Source: Candidatus Bathyarchaeota archaeon (GTDB lineage Archaea > Thermoproteota > Bathyarchaeia > RBG-16-48-13 > GCA-020355125). Taken from it: DNA of 8,822 nucleotides. Positions 3,359 to 8,821 of the stretch are shown piece after piece. Position 1 is the stretch's first letter. Each line of letters starts with the position of its first letter. The stretch spans positions 1-8,822 of the forward strand of contig JAOZHK010000270.1 in the NCBI GenBank assembly GCA_026014905.1, given 5' to 3'. The position numbers were made by a program, and so were the translations under genes. The notes below the pieces were generated by a model. The model worked only from the letters and a program-made list of their open reading frames with translations, made no database searches and was not told the DNA's origin.

Positions 3359-3448
3359 GTGAAGAATATTTGTAAACGTTATCATTACTCTTGGGGTTAC
3401 TCACTTCACCTCCTCATTATACCTGTGTGTCAGGTGGATTGGGTGTGA
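3359..3448 (+). CDS. Candidate 29-aa leader peptide translationally coupled to the next gene
   Basis: GTG at 3359, 6 bases after GGGAGGAG, opens a 29-codon frame beginning MKNICKRYHYSWGYS, then a short hydrophobic run (LHLLIIPVC), and ending with TGA at 3446-3448. The TGA overlaps the GTG (3445-3447) that is the best start for the next gene, giving a GTGTGA stop-start junction. Such overlaps usually mean translational coupling. Alternatives are that the peptide is only a ribosome-loading leader, or that the membrane protein once had a longer N-terminus and a frameshift separates the two. No function is assigned. Confidence 0.4.
   Translation: MKNICKRYHYSWGYSLHLLIIPVCQVDWV
3432..3438 (+). promoter_or_regulatory. 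Shine-Dalgarno deciding the GTG start at 3445
   Basis: AGGTGGA lies 6 bases before the GTG at 3445, close to the archaeal AGGTGAT consensus. A more upstream TTG (3391) in the same frame has no such site, so 3445 is preferred. Confidence 0.45.
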
Positions 3449-3780
3449 TATTGGATACAACTAATCTGTTGCTAACATTTTCAGGGTTAACTGGTGCTCT
3501 TACATGTTTAACGATCTGGAAAATCTCGCATGAGGAAACGAAAAAAGGAAGAAAACTTGCGTGGAATCTATCCTTTCGAAAGCAACGGAAACGAGTAAAA
3601 AGCCCGAAGCGTGCACGCTCCCGTGTTCATGCGAATCAAAATCGGAAGCGGAAATACGTGAAGCCTATCACCCCCCAGAAAGACGTGGATATTTTATCTC
3701 CTCAATATAATCTACCTCAGAATGAGAAACGTGACGAGGAAAGCCCTTATCTTGAAGGGGAATGGAAAGTGATTGAATGA
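3445..3780 (+). CDS. Small membrane protein with a highly basic cytosolic tail
   Basis: With GTG 3445 as start the protein is 111 aa. Residues about 7-26 form one moderately hydrophobic segment (LLLTFSGLTGALTCLTIW), followed at residues 33-74 by a tail in which 19 of 42 residues are Lys or Arg (for example FRKQRKRVKSPKRARSR), then an acidic, Pro/Asn-containing end (QNEKRDEESPYLEGE). The positive-inside rule puts the tail in the cytosol, where it could bind nucleic acid or acidic lipids. I know no named family. The frame is open back to a TTG at 3391 (130 aa), but that start lacks a ribosome site. Its stop codon overlaps the ATG of the next gene (ATGA), so the two are almost certainly co-translated. 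Confidence 0.65.
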   Translation: MILDTTNLLLTFSGLTGALTCLTIWKISHEETKKGRKLAWNLSFRKQRKRVKSPKRARSRVHANQNRKRKYVKPITPQKDVDILSPQYNLPQNEKRDEESPYLEGEWKVIE

Positions 3781-4232
3781 AACGTATTTTCTCAAAAGAT
3801 GCTCCTTATCAACGAACGACCGTTCGATTCGATAAGACGCTTAAAGATATAACTGATCTCTTACATCGATATGGTGCTGCAGATATTCGCTGGAATGATC
3901 AGCGAGATCGTGGTATTGTTGAAGTCGGTTTTCGCGTGAGGGTGCGTGAAGCAGGAGGTAAAAGCTATCAACCACCCGTTTGGATATCCATGCCACTTAT
4001 TTGGAAAAAGACCACTGATGGTTCGGAAATCATTAACTGGGATCAAAGTGGGCGCGTTTTATACTGGTATCTCAAGTCGCAACTCGAGATGACTTTGATG
4101 GGTCGGTCATTTGGAGAAGTCTTCCTTGCTTTTGTCCGAGACCATCTGCCCACGAACCTTGTTAAGCAGCTGGAAGAAACCGCTCATCGCCGGTTGACCG
4201 ATACTAACATCCTCGCACTGAATGAAGATTAA
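3777..4232 (+). CDS. 151-aa protein resembling a bacterial phage-associated family; function unknown
   Basis: The start ATG at 3777 overlaps the TGA of the previous gene, with GTGAT at 3769-3773 as a close Shine-Dalgarno. The layout is an N-terminal TTV strand (residues 14-16), a helix ending in RYGA (31-34), beta strands (IVEVGFRVRV, 47-56), a middle segment of strands with WISMPLIW (69-76), then a helix (VLYWYLKSQLEMTLMG, 94-109) and FGEVFLAFV (112-120). From memory, small bacterial and phage-encoded proteins have the same order: TTVP, helix, RYGA, beta strands, a W-to-LK-x-LE helix with an A/G turn, and an E-x-FL-A-hydrophobic end. This is a resemblance recalled, not a search result. No catalytic motif is evident. 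The gene is the last of its unit and ends in front of a hairpin. Confidence 0.75.
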   Translation: MKRIFSKDAPYQRTTVRFDKTLKDITDLLHRYGAADIRWNDQRDRGIVEVGFRVRVREAGGKSYQPPVWISMPLIWKKTTDGSEIINWDQSGRVLYWYLKSQLEMTLMGRSFGEVFLAFVRDHLPTNLVKQLEETAHRRLTDTNILALNED

Positions 4233-4338: not shown

Positions 4339-5364
4339 TCATTCGACGGGAATATCGATACTCAGAGCTTGCGCGGTCTGAGTTAGCGCAGTCCAGTCGG
4401 GCGTATCTATAGGAATCCCCTCTTTCAATCGCTGTTGCATCGTTCGATACTCGATTTCGCCAGGAACAAAGACTTCTTGGACGCCCGGCTGGGTTGGTGA
4501 CGCTTTAAGATATTCGATGAGTCGATCAACCCGTTCTTTGTATTTCTGGAGTGGCGTGAAGCCTGTGGGATCTATCGCGAGAAATAGGTGACCATATCGT
4601 GGGTTATCAAAGCCGCAGCCCGATCCGAGTGCACCTGTAAGGGCATCAATCATCACAGCTAGTCCATAGCCTTTATAGGTTCCAAAGGGCAGCAGCATTC
4701 CGTTGTTAAAGAAGTCGCGAGGGTTGGTGGTTGGTTGTCCATCTTTGTCGAGGATCCAGCCTTCTGGAATGGGTTCGCCACGCATCGCCATGACACTGAG
4801 ATGCCCTACGGCTACTTGGCTGGTCGCAATGTCCCATACAATAGGGGGATGAGTCGCCGCAGGAATGGCCATTGCGATAGGGTTGACGCCAATCACCTTC
4901 GATTTACCGCCCCAAGCTGCCATTCCAGGCGCACAGGTGCAAGTTACTAGGCCAATCTTGTCATGGAGTGCAGCGAGCTCCGCGTAGTAGTAGAGTGCGC
5001 CAATGTGATCGTCACCAAGGCTGGGGTTACAGGTTCCCACAGCACCTATACGGTATCCGTCAGCTTTCTGCATCGCGGTCTCCATGGCTTTTCGTCCCGC
5101 GACGAAACCAAAGCCACGATTTACATCCCACATTGCGGTGGTAGGCGTATCTTTTAGCACTTTAATTGGAGCAGTCGGGATAATACGACCTTCCTGTATT
5201 GCCTTGACGTATCGCGGTATCGCACGTACACCATGGGAGTCAACGCCGCGAAGACTGGTGCGGACGAGGTTCTCGACGACAATTTCTGCTTCTTCACGGG
5301 GTGCCCCCGCAGCCATAAAAATGTCGATACAAAATGCTCGTAAAATTTCTGCTTTTACATTCAT
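4339..5364 (-). CDS. LDH2-family NAD(P)-dependent malate/L-lactate-type dehydrogenase
   Basis: A 341-aa cytosolic 2-hydroxyacid/2-ketoacid oxidoreductase of the Ldh_2 family (the archaeal malate dehydrogenase/ureidoglycolate dehydrogenase group). It shows the catalytic-site signature SLRGVDSHGV with H44, the second active-site segment around DDH120IG..YYY, a nicotinamide-loop motif GVNPIAMAIP (159-168), WDIATSQVAVG (177-187), RGEPIPEGW (195-203) and GTYKGYGLA (228-236). The length is normal (330-360 aa). The residues around 109-121 read GTCNPSLGDDHIG, longer than the short NSNHFG-type segment I associate with most members, so substrate preference may differ from malate or lactate. The ATG start at 5364 fits a TATA box about 35 bases upstream. 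A T-rich stretch follows the stop, so it is probably a single-gene transcript. Confidence 0.92.
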   Translation of the reverse strand: MNVKAEILRAFCIDIFMAAGAPREEAEIVVENLVRTSLRGVDSHGVRAIPRYVKAIQEGRIIPTAPIKVLKDTPTTAMWDVNRGFGFVAGRKAMETAMQKADGYRIGAVGTCNPSLGDDHIGALYYYAELAALHDKIGLVTCTCAPGMAAWGGKSKVIGVNPIAMAIPAATHPPIVWDIATSQVAVGHLSVMAMRGEPIPEGWILDKDGQPTTNPRDFFNNGMLLPFGTYKGYGLAVMIDALTGALGSGCGFDNPRYGHLFLAIDPTGFTPLQKYKERVDRLIEYLKASPTQPGVQEVFVPGEIEYRTMQQRLKEGIPIDTPDWTALTQTAQALSIDIPVE

Positions 5365-5527: not shown

Positions 5528-6184
5528 TTAGAGACCTCTTCGCCAGGTCACTTTAAAGCCACTACTTTTTTTGGCACGTACACGCTTACGGGATTCAGAT
5601 CGCTTGAGCACCTTTCTCCGGATGACAGGTGGTTCTTTCTTTACTACAATGTTCTCTCGTCGTTCGGTAATTAGTTGTTCTAGCTCATTGAAACGCGCAT
5701 CATTCTTTTGTGGAATTTTTGCCAGAAGTACACGAGCATTGTCTTCTTGGCGTTCCATAAAGGCTGTCACTTCTTTATGATACATTTGGAATTGCATTGT
5801 TAGATTGTCAAGACGGTCCGCATTCGTTTCTTCACTCGATTGGATCTGGTCAAGCACGTTCATCTGGACGGTTTGGAGAGCTTCGATTTCAGGATAATCA
5901 GGAAGAATATTGTTAAGCTTAGATGTGGAATTTGATATACGTTCAACCATCATCGTTGGAGGAAAGGCGAAAAAAGCGGTGAGTCCAAGTAGACCTACGG
6001 TCATTATTGCTGTTCCAAAAAAATATTCAGATGCATTTACACTTCCAATGATTTGTCCAAATAGGAATGGCTGGTAGATTCCAGTACCACGAGTTGCGTG
6101 AATAAGAGCATACATTACATTTAGTGCACTTAGAAATGTGAGGCTTCCGAGTCCCCAACCCATTAGGAGACGCCATTTATTCAC
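5528..6184 (-). CDS. Two-TM, coiled-coil membrane protein with very basic C-terminal tail (paralogue of the neighbouring HhH protein)
   Basis: I chose the GTG at 6184 (218 aa), because GGTG at 6195-6192 lies 7 bases upstream; the frame also opens at a GTG at 6193. Two membrane helices (about residues 7-29, containing LGSLTF and NVMYAL, and 43-74, with IIGSV and a conserved E and G) form a hairpin with both ends probably cytosolic. Residues about 82-177 are helical and coiled-coil-like. The final 37 residues contain 16 Lys/Arg (for example IRRKVLKRSESRKRVRAKK), suited to binding nucleic acid or acidic lipid. The N-terminal module aligns with that of the HhH gene upstream (LGSLTF, NVxYxL, IGSV at the same positions), so the two are divergent tandem duplicates. 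No enzymatic motif is visible and the function is unknown. Confidence 0.8.
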   Translation of the reverse strand: MNKWRLLMGWGLGSLTFLSALNVMYALIHATRGTGIYQPFLFGQIIGSVNASEYFFGTAIMTVGLLGLTAFFAFPPTMMVERISNSTSKLNNILPDYPEIEALQTVQMNVLDQIQSSEETNADRLDNLTMQFQMYHKEVTAFMERQEDNARVLLAKIPQKNDARFNELEQLITERRENIVVKKEPPVIRRKVLKRSESRKRVRAKKSSGFKVTWRRGL

Positions 6185-6191
6185 AAGATAC

Positions 6192-6195
6192 ACCT
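6192..6195 (-). promoter_or_regulatory. Shine-Dalgarno deciding the GTG start at 6184
   Basis: AAAAGGTGTATC on the minus strand has its GGTG 7 bases ahead of the GTG at 6184-6182. It overlaps the alternative GTG at 6193, which therefore has no usable site of its own. Confidence 0.45.
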
Positions 6196-6214
6196 TTTGA
6201 GATATGCTATGTTT

Positions 6215-6307
6215 TCACATTTCTGTAATAGATGATGAGCGCGCGCGGAAGCTCGTTAACTCTGCATCTGTCCATTCCTGACCGCTGCAAACTTGTTTCT
6301 CTTTCAT
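6215..6307 (-). CDS. Candidate 30-aa ORF between the two paralogues
   Basis: ATG at 6307 follows AGGAG (6318-6314) with 6 bases spacing, an excellent ribosome site. The frame ends in TGA at 6217-6215 and encodes 30 aa starting MKEKQVCSGQEWTDAEL. It fits neatly between the HhH gene (29 bases before it) and the basic-tail gene (30 bases after it), as expected for an operon member. The EWTDAEL segment faintly recalls the first helix of Myb/SANT-like domains, but the peptide is far too short for that fold, so it may be a relic or a true micro-protein. No function is assigned. Confidence 0.4.
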   Translation of the reverse strand: MKEKQVCSGQEWTDAELTSFRARSSSITEM

Positions 6308-6336
6308 TGAGTTCTCCTGGATTAATCGAAATCCTC

Positions 6337-7236
6337 TTATCTTTTTGCAACGCGAACCCATAGTAAGATTTCCTCTAACGTGGGTATCTCTTCTTTCGAC
6401 AGTTGTTCCGCTTCAAGATAATTTTGCGCCACATTTGATAACATCAGATTTAACTCAAGGGGATCTTGGGTTGCGAGGTCACGACGGGTTGAAACGCCAA
6501 CTTCTTCAAGAAGTGCCAGGTCAGCGTAACTGAGGTTTGGAATCATAAGTAATTGAATTGAATTCCTGAGTTGCTCAATCTGTTCATGGGTCAACCGGGT
6601 ATGCTTGCTGACATCCAAGGGATTTGCGACGAGAAGATCAGTAACAGTCATGATATTCAAGTCCTCCAGTGCAGCAGCTGTCTTCGGTCCAATTCCCTTC
6701 AGCTCTTTAGGACTGCTTTGACCAGTTAATACTGGTTCCGGTAACTGCAACGAGGTTTGAAGTTCGAGGATCGCTTGTTCGACGTTCCGACTCAATTGAC
6801 CGATTCGCTTCTCAATTTGTTGCTGACGATCTAAAGTATTAGCTAACTCAATTTGCATATCTTGGAAGGATGTAATTACCTGTTGCTGTCCGACCATACT
6901 TTCCTGTAAGGCTTTGGTAGTAGCCCCAGCATTTACATTGTTCACGTGAAGAACCTCTTTGTTGACAGCAATCAGATTTTCCATTACCGGTAAAATCTTG
7001 CCACTCATCGATATTGATGCAAATGACATAAGCGTGGCTGAAAGAAAAATCATGGTAACTGCAATCGAAACCCCAAGATAGAGTTCATAGGCAACACTAC
7101 CAATTAGCGCACTTAGTAGATATGGAGAAAAGGGATTCGAGTAGCGAGATAGTACATAGAAAACATTGGCTACAGCCATAAAAGTTAGGGAGCCTAATAG
7201 ACATAAAACGTAGAGGGGTCTTCGAGATGACATCAT
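6337..7236 (-). CDS. Two-TM, coiled-coil protein with C-terminal DUF4332-like double helix-hairpin-helix domain
   Basis: The start is placed at the ATG-ATG pair 7236/7233 (299 aa), because it precedes the first TM directly and homology with the neighbouring paralogue begins there; an open extension to a TTG at 7326 looks non-coding. Two membrane helices (about residues 7-29 and 47-74) are followed by a coiled coil (about 85-163, Gln-rich), a short Pro-rich linker, and two HhH units: LKGIGPKTAAALEDL (179-193) and IPNLSYADLALLEEVGVST (232-250). The C-terminus, IPTLEEILLWVRVAKR, matches the usual end of DUF4332 domains (xPTxxxVxxWIxxAK). HhH units bind DNA or protein; in DUF4332 the first hairpin keeps GIGPK, while the second has NLSYA. 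The domain would face the cytosol. The role is unknown; membrane tethering of DNA or a scaffold is an inference. Confidence 0.85.
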   Translation of the reverse strand: MMSSRRPLYVLCLLGSLTFMAVANVFYVLSRYSNPFSPYLLSALIGSVAYELYLGVSIAVTMIFLSATLMSFASISMSGKILPVMENLIAVNKEVLHVNNVNAGATTKALQESMVGQQQVITSFQDMQIELANTLDRQQQIEKRIGQLSRNVEQAILELQTSLQLPEPVLTGQSSPKELKGIGPKTAAALEDLNIMTVTDLLVANPLDVSKHTRLTHEQIEQLRNSIQLLMIPNLSYADLALLEEVGVSTRRDLATQDPLELNLMLSNVAQNYLEAEQLSKEEIPTLEEILLWVRVAKR

Positions 7237-7349: not shown

Positions 7350-7535
7350 CTATGATTCGTTTTCACACCAAGGACACTGTGTGCTGGGTGATGAATTATT
7401 TGGGGAAGAAGAGGGATTCCAAATGTATCCACAGCGCGGGCATCGTTCGGTCTTCAAGAAGTGGAAAACACGACTTTTGAGAATTACTATTATGAGACCA
7501 AGAACGATAGCTCCAGCGATTAGGTATAATATCAC
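7350..7535 (-). CDS. Membrane-anchored zinc-ribbon protein, 61 aa
   Basis: The GTG start at 7535 follows AGGAGG (7548-7543) with 7 bases spacing, the strongest Shine-Dalgarno on this strand. An N-terminal membrane helix (residues 2-20, ILYLIAGAIVLGLIIVILK) is followed by a short basic linker and a zinc ribbon with two CxxC knuckles, C32-P-R-C35 and C54-P-W-C57, separated by a Ser/Pro/Asn-rich loop. The positive-inside rule puts the ribbon in the cytosol. Small archaeal ribbons of this sort are usually binding modules, not enzymes. The gene precedes the two-TM paralogues and, like them, tethers a small cytosolic module to the membrane, so it may belong to the same assembly. Confidence 0.82.
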   Translation of the reverse strand: MILYLIAGAIVLGLIIVILKSRVFHFLKTERCPRCGYIWNPSSSPNNSSPSTQCPWCENES

Positions 7536-7651: not shown

Positions 7652-8821
7652 TCAGTTCAGGAGATTGTGGATCGTTGTAGATGTCACGGTTTTATTCATT
7701 GAAGTTCGAATTGGCGTTATTTTCTTGTTCTCTCCCAAAATAATTGCTCCGATGAGAATTCCCTGTTTGAGTACCAGTTTCTTGTAGATACCATGTTTAC
7801 TATCGGTTTTTGTAAATACATCGTAAGTCGAGTCTTCCGGGTTGACTACTCCAAGAGATGTTAAGGAAAGCCCTGCGATTTGTAGCGTGTGGGTTAATGT
7901 AGTCCCATTATATCTGTTGCGTTCAGTCTTGATCAGACTGTGTGCGGTATGAGTTGCTTGTTCAATGGCAGCTGGAATGGTTTCATATACCTGACCTTGG
8001 AACTCAGCTACATTTCCACAGGCATAGATGTGGTCGTTAGAGGTCTGAAGCAGTGAATTCACGATTATGCCTTTGCGAGTCTTGATACCTGCGTTCTGAG
8101 TTATGGTGAGATTAGGTCGTATTCCAGCTGAAATTATTGCCAGCGAGCTGGGCAGGTAATGTCCAGTATCAAGTAGGAGTCCCGACACCGCGGTTTGACC
8201 TTGGATGTGATGAACCTGTGTTCCAAGAGTGACATGAATGCCGAAGGATTCAATGTACTGCTTAAGAATCATCGCGGCAGTTGTATCTAATTGTCGTGGG
8301 AGTAGTCGAGGTAACAATTCGATAACATGAACCTGTAGTCTGAGTTTGGCGAGTGCCACTGCTACCTCAAGGCCTAAAAGGCCGCCACCAATGACCGTTA
8401 CATGACCTCCGGTTTGTATATACCTCTTGATCTGTAAGGCATCATGCAGCGTACGCAGAGTGAAAACTCCTGGTTTATTCACGCCTGAAATTGGCGGTAC
8501 AAAGGGATGGGCCCCCATCGCGAGGACCAGACGATCATATGAAACAGGAGTTCCGTTATCAAGGTGAATGAGTTGCTGACTCGGTTCAATCGCGACCACC
8601 TTTGTGCTCAGCTGAATATCGATGCCATGTTGATGATACCAGTCAGTGGTGAAGGAAAGCACAGATTCTGGAGAGGCGCGCGCCGATAAGACAGTATAAA
8701 GACGTGGTCTTGGATAGTAGAGATAAGGTTCATCGGTATACATTGTGATCTTGATATCAGATCGATGATGCCGCAGAGTCCGTGCTGCAGTGAGGCCTGA
8801 GATACCATTACCTACAATAAC
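7652..8821 (-). CDS. FAD/NAD(P)-dependent oxidoreductase (NirB/rubredoxin-reductase-like fold), 5' end outside the window
   Basis: The frame stays open to the right edge, and the ATG at 8743 is internal, because the 26 codons before it encode an FAD-binding Rossmann start (VIVGNGISGLTAARTL, GxGxxG). Numbering from that ATG, the protein has YLYYPRPRLY (8-16), LAMGAHPFVPP (74-84), a second, NAD-binding Rossmann motif VIGGGLLGLE (117-126) with E142 at the end of its beta-2, SAGIRPN (205-211), ACGNVAEFQG (241-250) where the usual GD of the flavin ribose motif is G-N, and a C-terminal domain with GIYKKLVLKQGILIGAIILG (318-337). No CxxxxC redox pair is seen, so this is not a disulfide reductase. 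It probably passes electrons from NAD(P)H to a small redox protein or O2; the partner is unknown. Family placement is strong; the exact substrate is not visible. Confidence 0.9.
   Translation of the reverse strand, partial: VIVGNGISGLTAARTLRHHRSDIKITMYTDEPYLYYPRPRLYTVLSARASPESVLSFTTDWYHQHGIDIQLSTKVVAIEPSQQLIHLDNGTPVSYDRLVLAMGAHPFVPPISGVNKPGVFTLRTLHDALQIKRYIQTGGHVTVIGGGLLGLEVAVALAKLRLQVHVIELLPRLLPRQLDTTAAMILKQYIESFGIHVTLGTQVHHIQGQTAVSGLLLDTGHYLPSSLAIISAGIRPNLTITQNAGIKTRKGIIVNSLLQTSNDHIYACGNVAEFQGQVYETIPAAIEQATHTAHSLIKTERNRYNGTTLTHTLQIAGLSLTSLGVVNPEDSTYDVFTKTDSKHGIYKKLVLKQGILIGAIILGENKKITPIRTSMNKTVTSTTIHNLLN

Follow-up and report, generated by a model that had tools for sequence, protein, structure and literature searches.

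Neighbouring archaeal membrane proteins with a common two-helix anchor and different ends: a possible recruitment scaffold

Introduction

What is the role of two neighbouring genes whose products appear to share a membrane anchor and yet end in quite different modules? The question is raised by a contig of a Candidatus Bathyarchaeota archaeon (JAOZHK010000270.1, assembly GCA_026014905.1), of which the 8,822 nucleotides from position 1 on, referred to here as the window, were analysed. According to the original prediction, the genes arose by duplication followed by replacement of the C-terminal module, and both end modules are of the nucleic-acid-binding type. One of these modules is a DUF4332 domain, which is widespread yet has next to no open literature: one paper names it, where the legend of a figure describes a rhodopsin operon, and no mention of its entries PF14229 and IPR025567 was found in the open literature. 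Nor was a description of the combination found there (the search covered openly available papers and a minority of those under subscription, bioRxiv excepted), or anything fitting on membrane-bound HhH or nucleoid proteins in archaea. A natural pair in which one kind of anchor bears a DUF4332 head in one protein and a conserved basic tail in the other offers a handle on the role of DUF4332. It also bears on the question whether nucleic acid or its machinery is served by dedicated membrane adaptors in archaea. The parts themselves, namely an HhH/DUF4332 domain, a basic tail and a two-helix anchor, are of known kinds, and the pair is a real but modest find.

Layout of the locus and transcription signals

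The two genes, here named A and B, lie on the same strand as predicted. The order of transcription on the minus strand is the gene of a 61-aa protein, B, a 30-aa ORF and A, all of them between an oxidoreductase and an Ldh_2 gene:

7652-8821: pyridine nucleotide-disulphide oxidoreductase, the flank upstream of the 61-aa gene, cut by the window edge
7350..7535, minus strand: 61-aa protein encoded upstream of B, with a single membrane helix, CPRC and CPWC, zinc-ribbon-like, GGAGG upstream
6337..7236, minus strand: gene B (299 aa), with two membrane helices, a long helical arm and a DUF4332 head
6215..6307, minus strand: 30-aa ORF between B and A, GGAG upstream, putatively coding
5528..6184, minus strand: gene A (218 aa from a GTG start), with two membrane helices, a helical arm and a basic tail
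4339-5364: malate/lactate dehydrogenase (Ldh_2), the flank downstream of A

For gene A, the GTG at 6184 is the more likely start in comparison with 6193, because it is preceded by AGGTG and because relatives have a matching first residue. Two of the nine relatives are cut N-terminally (P0001, P0009), and five of the other seven begin at the residue that matches 6184; P0002 and P0004 carry three extra N-terminal residues. The 61-aa protein, which has no family over its cut-off, is a third membrane-anchored protein encoded directly upstream of B in the same direction, and the 30-aa ORF could encode a small protein, act as a leader or have arisen by chance.

TATA-like boxes were searched for as YTTAWAWA with at most one mismatch in the 110 bases upstream of each gene (background 0.0022 per position). 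Perfect matches (8/8) lie 43 bases upstream of an SDR gene and 39 bases upstream of Ldh_2, the next gene downstream of A, and 7/8 matches are located 39 bases upstream of an 89-aa gene, 22 bases upstream of a 129-aa ORF and 49 bases upstream of the 61-aa gene. The 110 bases ahead of A contain no such box, and neither do those ahead of the 30-aa ORF, B and a 151-aa ORF. As indirect evidence, this pattern fits an archaeal source and a transcript that runs through A and ends before Ldh_2, and co-transcription and co-expression of A and B are plausible. Between 5300 and 7700, six bacterial promoter-like sites were counted (5.0 expected) and no terminators; the window holds no RNA families or tRNAs, and PADLOC assigns no defence family to A or B.

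The plus strand of the window holds further frames. The frame at 2-1489, cut by the window edge, is probably that of a surface protein: it encodes PKD and NEW3-type domains and has a hydrophobic C-terminus. The 89-aa protein (2482-2751) has weak matches to helical families, none of them over the cut-off. The 129- and 151-aa ORFs adjoin each other (3391-4232) and are without a family over the cut-off; in the former, a hydrophobic stretch is followed by a K/R-rich part, which recalls the layout of A.

A common anchor followed by different arms

The anchors and arms of A and B are the following:

7006..7218, minus strand: B residues 7-77, two-membrane-helix module homologous to A, from hydropathy and homology
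5960..6166, minus strand: A residues 10-78 (221-aa reading), two-membrane-helix module, from homology, a low-confidence model and hydropathy
6751..6930, minus strand: B residues 103-162, long helix with a heptad pattern, from a heptad test; the model has a pLDDT under 50 here
5642..5893, minus strand: A residues 101-184 (221-aa reading), conserved helical arm, from an alignment and a model

By sequence comparison, the anchors of A and B are homologous over about 75 residues, with pairwise BLASTP E-values of 3e-9 (BLOSUM45) and 3e-8 (BLOSUM62) and an identity of 43% over 49 residues in the BLOSUM45 alignment. The predicted N-terminal alignment, with LGSLTF, NVxYxL, IGSV and matching E and G, is borne out by a local score of 86 against a shuffle mean of 27 (sd 5), which is reached by none of 5000 plain and none of 5000 hydrophobicity-class-preserving shuffles. 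In a control on real sequence, the same score is reached by none of 108 hydrophobic 80-aa windows (maxima 45 and 44). The pairwise profile comparison of the two families is significant as well (E 7.6e-7, probability 91.7). Two membrane helices had been assigned to both proteins; this holds for B, whereas helix 1 of A does not stand out by hydropathy (mean below 1.6) and is placed by comparison with B and by the structure model of A (pLDDT 55.8 on average). In A and in B alike, the net charge of the first 20 residues is +2, and these positive N-termini suggest that both ends of each protein are cytosolic.

A coiled coil had also been proposed for both proteins. The arm of B fits this, since only 13 to 19 of 1000 shuffles have as good a heptad pattern (four measures), and the arm of A as a whole does not (763 of 1000 shuffles for residues 101-184, 55 of 1000 for its best 35-residue stretch and 426 of 1000 for residues 125-159). 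A coiled coil inside the homologous module is likewise not supported: the score of the arms alone is reached by 1776 of 5000 shuffles and is thus at shuffle level, although the profile alignment of A and B extended to column 151 and a weak relation may exist. As the arms are not detectably homologous, the anchor alone is clearly common to A and B. Within the A family, the arm is well kept, with 41 of 82 columns at residues 101-182 invariant in eight sequences. Of the proposed history, a common anchor with differing ends is shown by the homology statistics, and duplication followed by replacement is the simplest reading of it.

The basic tail of A

The arm of A leads into a tail with two features:

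5531..5641, minus strand: basic tail, last 37 residues, 16 K/R and 2 D/E, model pLDDT under 50 from residue 181 on
5531..5578, minus strand: terminal motif RxKKSSGxKVxWRRG(L/I), 12 of 16 columns invariant in eight sequences

A count agrees with the 16 Lys/Arg reported earlier. Conservation was assessed in eight sequences, the partial P0001 and P0009 having been dropped from ten rows. The mean identity is 0.88 for the last 16 residues, 0.77 for both the tail and the arm, 0.69 for the membrane module and 0.65 for the linker, which makes the last 16 residues the most conserved among the stretches compared. A tail that is kept letter for letter is likelier to have a specific ligand than to act by mere charge. 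The predicted cytosolic parts have a pI of 9.86 in A and 4.84 in B, and the tail of A is, as judged from its sequence, a better candidate polyanion binder than the head of B.

No Pfam family matches A over its cut-off, and PHROGs yields none. Hits of two of ten family members to PF24141 (best E 0.00091) and of one member to PF05491 (0.096) were taken as coincidental, and the best solved structure found by sequence (E 0.9) as chance.

The DUF4332 head of B

The C-terminal part of B contains the following elements, the hairpins being placed by comparison with DUF4332 members:

6343..6696, minus strand: B residues 181-298, acidic DUF4332 (PF14229) head, profile match E 1.1e-13
6688..6696, minus strand: B residues 181-183, canonical first hairpin G-I-G (ELKGIGPKTA)
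6529..6537, minus strand: B residues 234-236 (NLS), second hairpin, G-h-G lost

The match to PF14229 scores 51.9 bits, against a gathering score of 23.2, and covers profile positions 2-120 of 122; the model of B has a pLDDT of 70-87 by blocks at residues 221-299 and a lower one before. The proposed DUF4332-like double HhH is therefore upheld as a domain and fails at its second hairpin, where NLS replaces G-h-G and all five B sequences (that of the window and P0010-P0013, some partial) have N or D followed by L-S. The first hairpin is canonical and has three invariant lysines nearby, K177, K180 and K185. The net charge of the domain is -7. One relative, P0012, is without 36 residues inside the domain, which is probably an artefact of assembly or gene calling.

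DUF4332 occurs in 85 of 301 genomes of one bacterial phylum and in control genomes (5 of 14 in one search, 4 of 14 in another). Two sets of members from this phylum were compared with B: set 1 comprises 25 of the best-scoring 30 loci, those matched by the domain of B, and set 2 comprises 20 lower-scoring, near-full-length members of about 43 to 60 bits, nearer to the 51.9 bits of B. In set 1, G-h-G is kept in 22 of 25 members at each hairpin, and the stretch before the last helix has a net charge of +1 to +4 in all 25, compared with -3 in B. When the domain is taken with three residues more at either end, B is more acidic than all 25 (-5 to +15), and over the aligned columns one of the 25 is more acidic than B. 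The open frames of 23 of the 25 are under 180 aa and so have no room for the layout of B.

Judged by set 1 alone, B seemed peculiar in having lost hairpin 2 and the basic patch, a view that set 2 overturned. There, G-h-G is kept at none of 20 first hairpins, a count that rests on fewer full rows because six of the 20 stretches start inside or after hairpin 1, and at four of 20 second hairpins. The stretch before the last helix ranges from -2 to +2 and the domain net charge from -11 to +5, six of the 20 being as acidic as B or more so. On these alignments, it is common for diverged DUF4332 domains to have lost the second hairpin, and B is not unique in this; the oddity of B for its score class is that the first hairpin is kept. 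Because lower-scoring members mostly are without G-h-G in both hairpins, belonging to DUF4332 is in itself no predictor of DNA binding. The members of set 2 (L032-L051) have two looks, GIS...LAGAP and GFG...WWEQA, and PF14229 may hold functionally different groups.

None of 164 Foldseek matches of the B model reaches an E-value of 0.001 or better. The best solved structure found by sequence, farnesyl diphosphate synthase (E 0.095), was taken as chance, and PHROGs gives two weak families: a DNA polymerase, which matches the HhH part at E 3.4e-4, and a transposase at E 0.0055.

Relatives and pairing

Relatives of A fall into nine protein clusters with 67-98% identity, and those of B into four clusters and one further fragment (P0014) with 85-98%. 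The longest contigs are 19,887 (P0002), 24,428 (P0003) and 23,003 (P0004) bases for the A clusters and 11,615, 5,717, 4,130, 2,011 and 1,268 bases for the B clusters; none of the latter matches P0002-P0004, with the caveat that contig fields may be incomplete. By estimate, a relative of B would still have enough words in common for detection at an identity of 60%. Since these long-contig A clusters have no matching B cluster, A may occur without a close B, a weak hint that the pairing is not universal. A profile of 11 A and B sequences, run on the 7997 candidates with the most words in common, finds no third paralogue among them; the 14 proteins matched are all known A or B clusters except for P0014.

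In genome contigs, none of 65 pattern matches of the A family was confirmed, and a joined query of B and Ldh_2 gave 40, of which the one confirmed is an Ldh_2 relative (34%) in a Chloroflexi bin. Viral contigs gave seven pattern matches for B and 51 for A, none confirmed, and a tblastn search of plasmids and phages, done with B only, gave no match. As pattern scans require near-exact peptides, absence means that the sets scanned contain no close relative.

Proposed function and alternative explanations

The preferred reading, to which a probability of about 0.35 is assigned, is that A and B form a co-transcribed membrane recruitment scaffold, in which the head of B mainly docks protein and the tail of A grips a polyanion or acidic partner. 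A and B would be diverged paralogues, made from one transcript, with a common two-helix anchor and both ends in the cytosol. The anchor would probably bring them together in the membrane in a mixed assembly that holds out two different cytosolic arms. One arm, that of B, would present the acidic DUF4332 HhH head, mainly as an adaptor for protein partners. The other, that of A, would end in a disordered, strongly basic tail, which would use its invariant terminal motif to grip a polyanionic or acidic partner, the candidates being nucleic acid, the ribosome or the head of B itself.

It is possible, if doubtful, that each of the two ends binds nucleic acid and that the pair tethers the chromosome or RNA to the membrane. 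This is a strong rival because the first hairpin of B is canonical and kept: B has GIGPKTA with the three lysines nearby, and none of the 20 lower-scoring members keeps G-h-G there. The K/R content of the A tail (16/37) points the same way, as do weak matches of B among curated models to segments of RecG, DNA polymerase IV and RadA, all of them far below the cut-off. The claim that both ends are of the nucleic-acid-binding type is half supported: the tail of A and the first hairpin of B fit it, but the head of B is acidic and its second hairpin is lost. Moreover, the tail of A is conserved as a sequence, beyond its charge, which non-specific DNA binding does not need.

That the paralogues work apart, each as a homo-oligomer with a job of its own, and that their adjacency is a relic of duplication, appears rather unlikely. 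It would suit the modest identity of the anchors, just 43% over 49 residues, the unlike arms and the range of A, which is wider than that of B (nine clusters at 67-98% vs five at 85-98%), but the intergenic signals fit one transcript.

The basic tail of A might also dock directly on the acidic head of B, as a latch or an assembly contact between the paralogues. The cytosolic ends have opposite charges, and among HhH domains the RAD51 N-terminal lobe may touch a basic peptide, the H4 tail. Charge alone is weak evidence, however, and the A clusters on contigs of 19.9-24.4 kb have no matching B cluster, so that A may exist without a close B. This contact is unlikely. The boldest reading builds on the same tail-to-head contact: in an undescribed archaeal membrane scaffold, the conserved tail of A would be received by the acidic DUF4332 head of B with its one lost hairpin, and the unit would recruit chromatin or transcription machinery to the membrane, which is quite improbable.

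Oxa1-class insertases have a ribosome- or membrane-binding tail, and a similar function of the A tail with no DNA role would agree with a basic, low-confidence, probably disordered end after a helical arm, but A has no Pfam match over the cut-off and this analogy is highly improbable.

Comparison with known systems

The proposed recruitment scaffold has partial counterparts. Like many lower-scoring DUF4332 proteins, B is without the second G-h-G; unlike the 20 compared here, it keeps the first hairpin, and it differs from DUF4332 proteins in adding two membrane helices and a long arm. The HhH domains of NusA (AR2) and of the RAD51 N-terminal lobe, whose Z-scores to the head of B are in the common range with no sequence homology established, belong to proteins that, unlike B, are not membrane-bound.

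ComEA, the competence DNA receptor, is membrane-anchored and of the HhH type, and to our knowledge it has no two-helix anchor, DUF4332 domain or basic-tailed paralogue. It resembles the pair in having a DNA-binding domain and an oligomerisation domain and differs in that it serves DNA uptake outside the cytosol. The nucleoid protein Rv3852 likewise binds DNA and is tethered to the membrane, in this case through a single C-terminal membrane helix. Prokaryotic histones with membrane helices have a fold of the DNA-binding type, have seemingly lost the DNA-binding residues and have gained membrane helices, a course comparable to that proposed for the head of B, with a histone fold in place of HhH.
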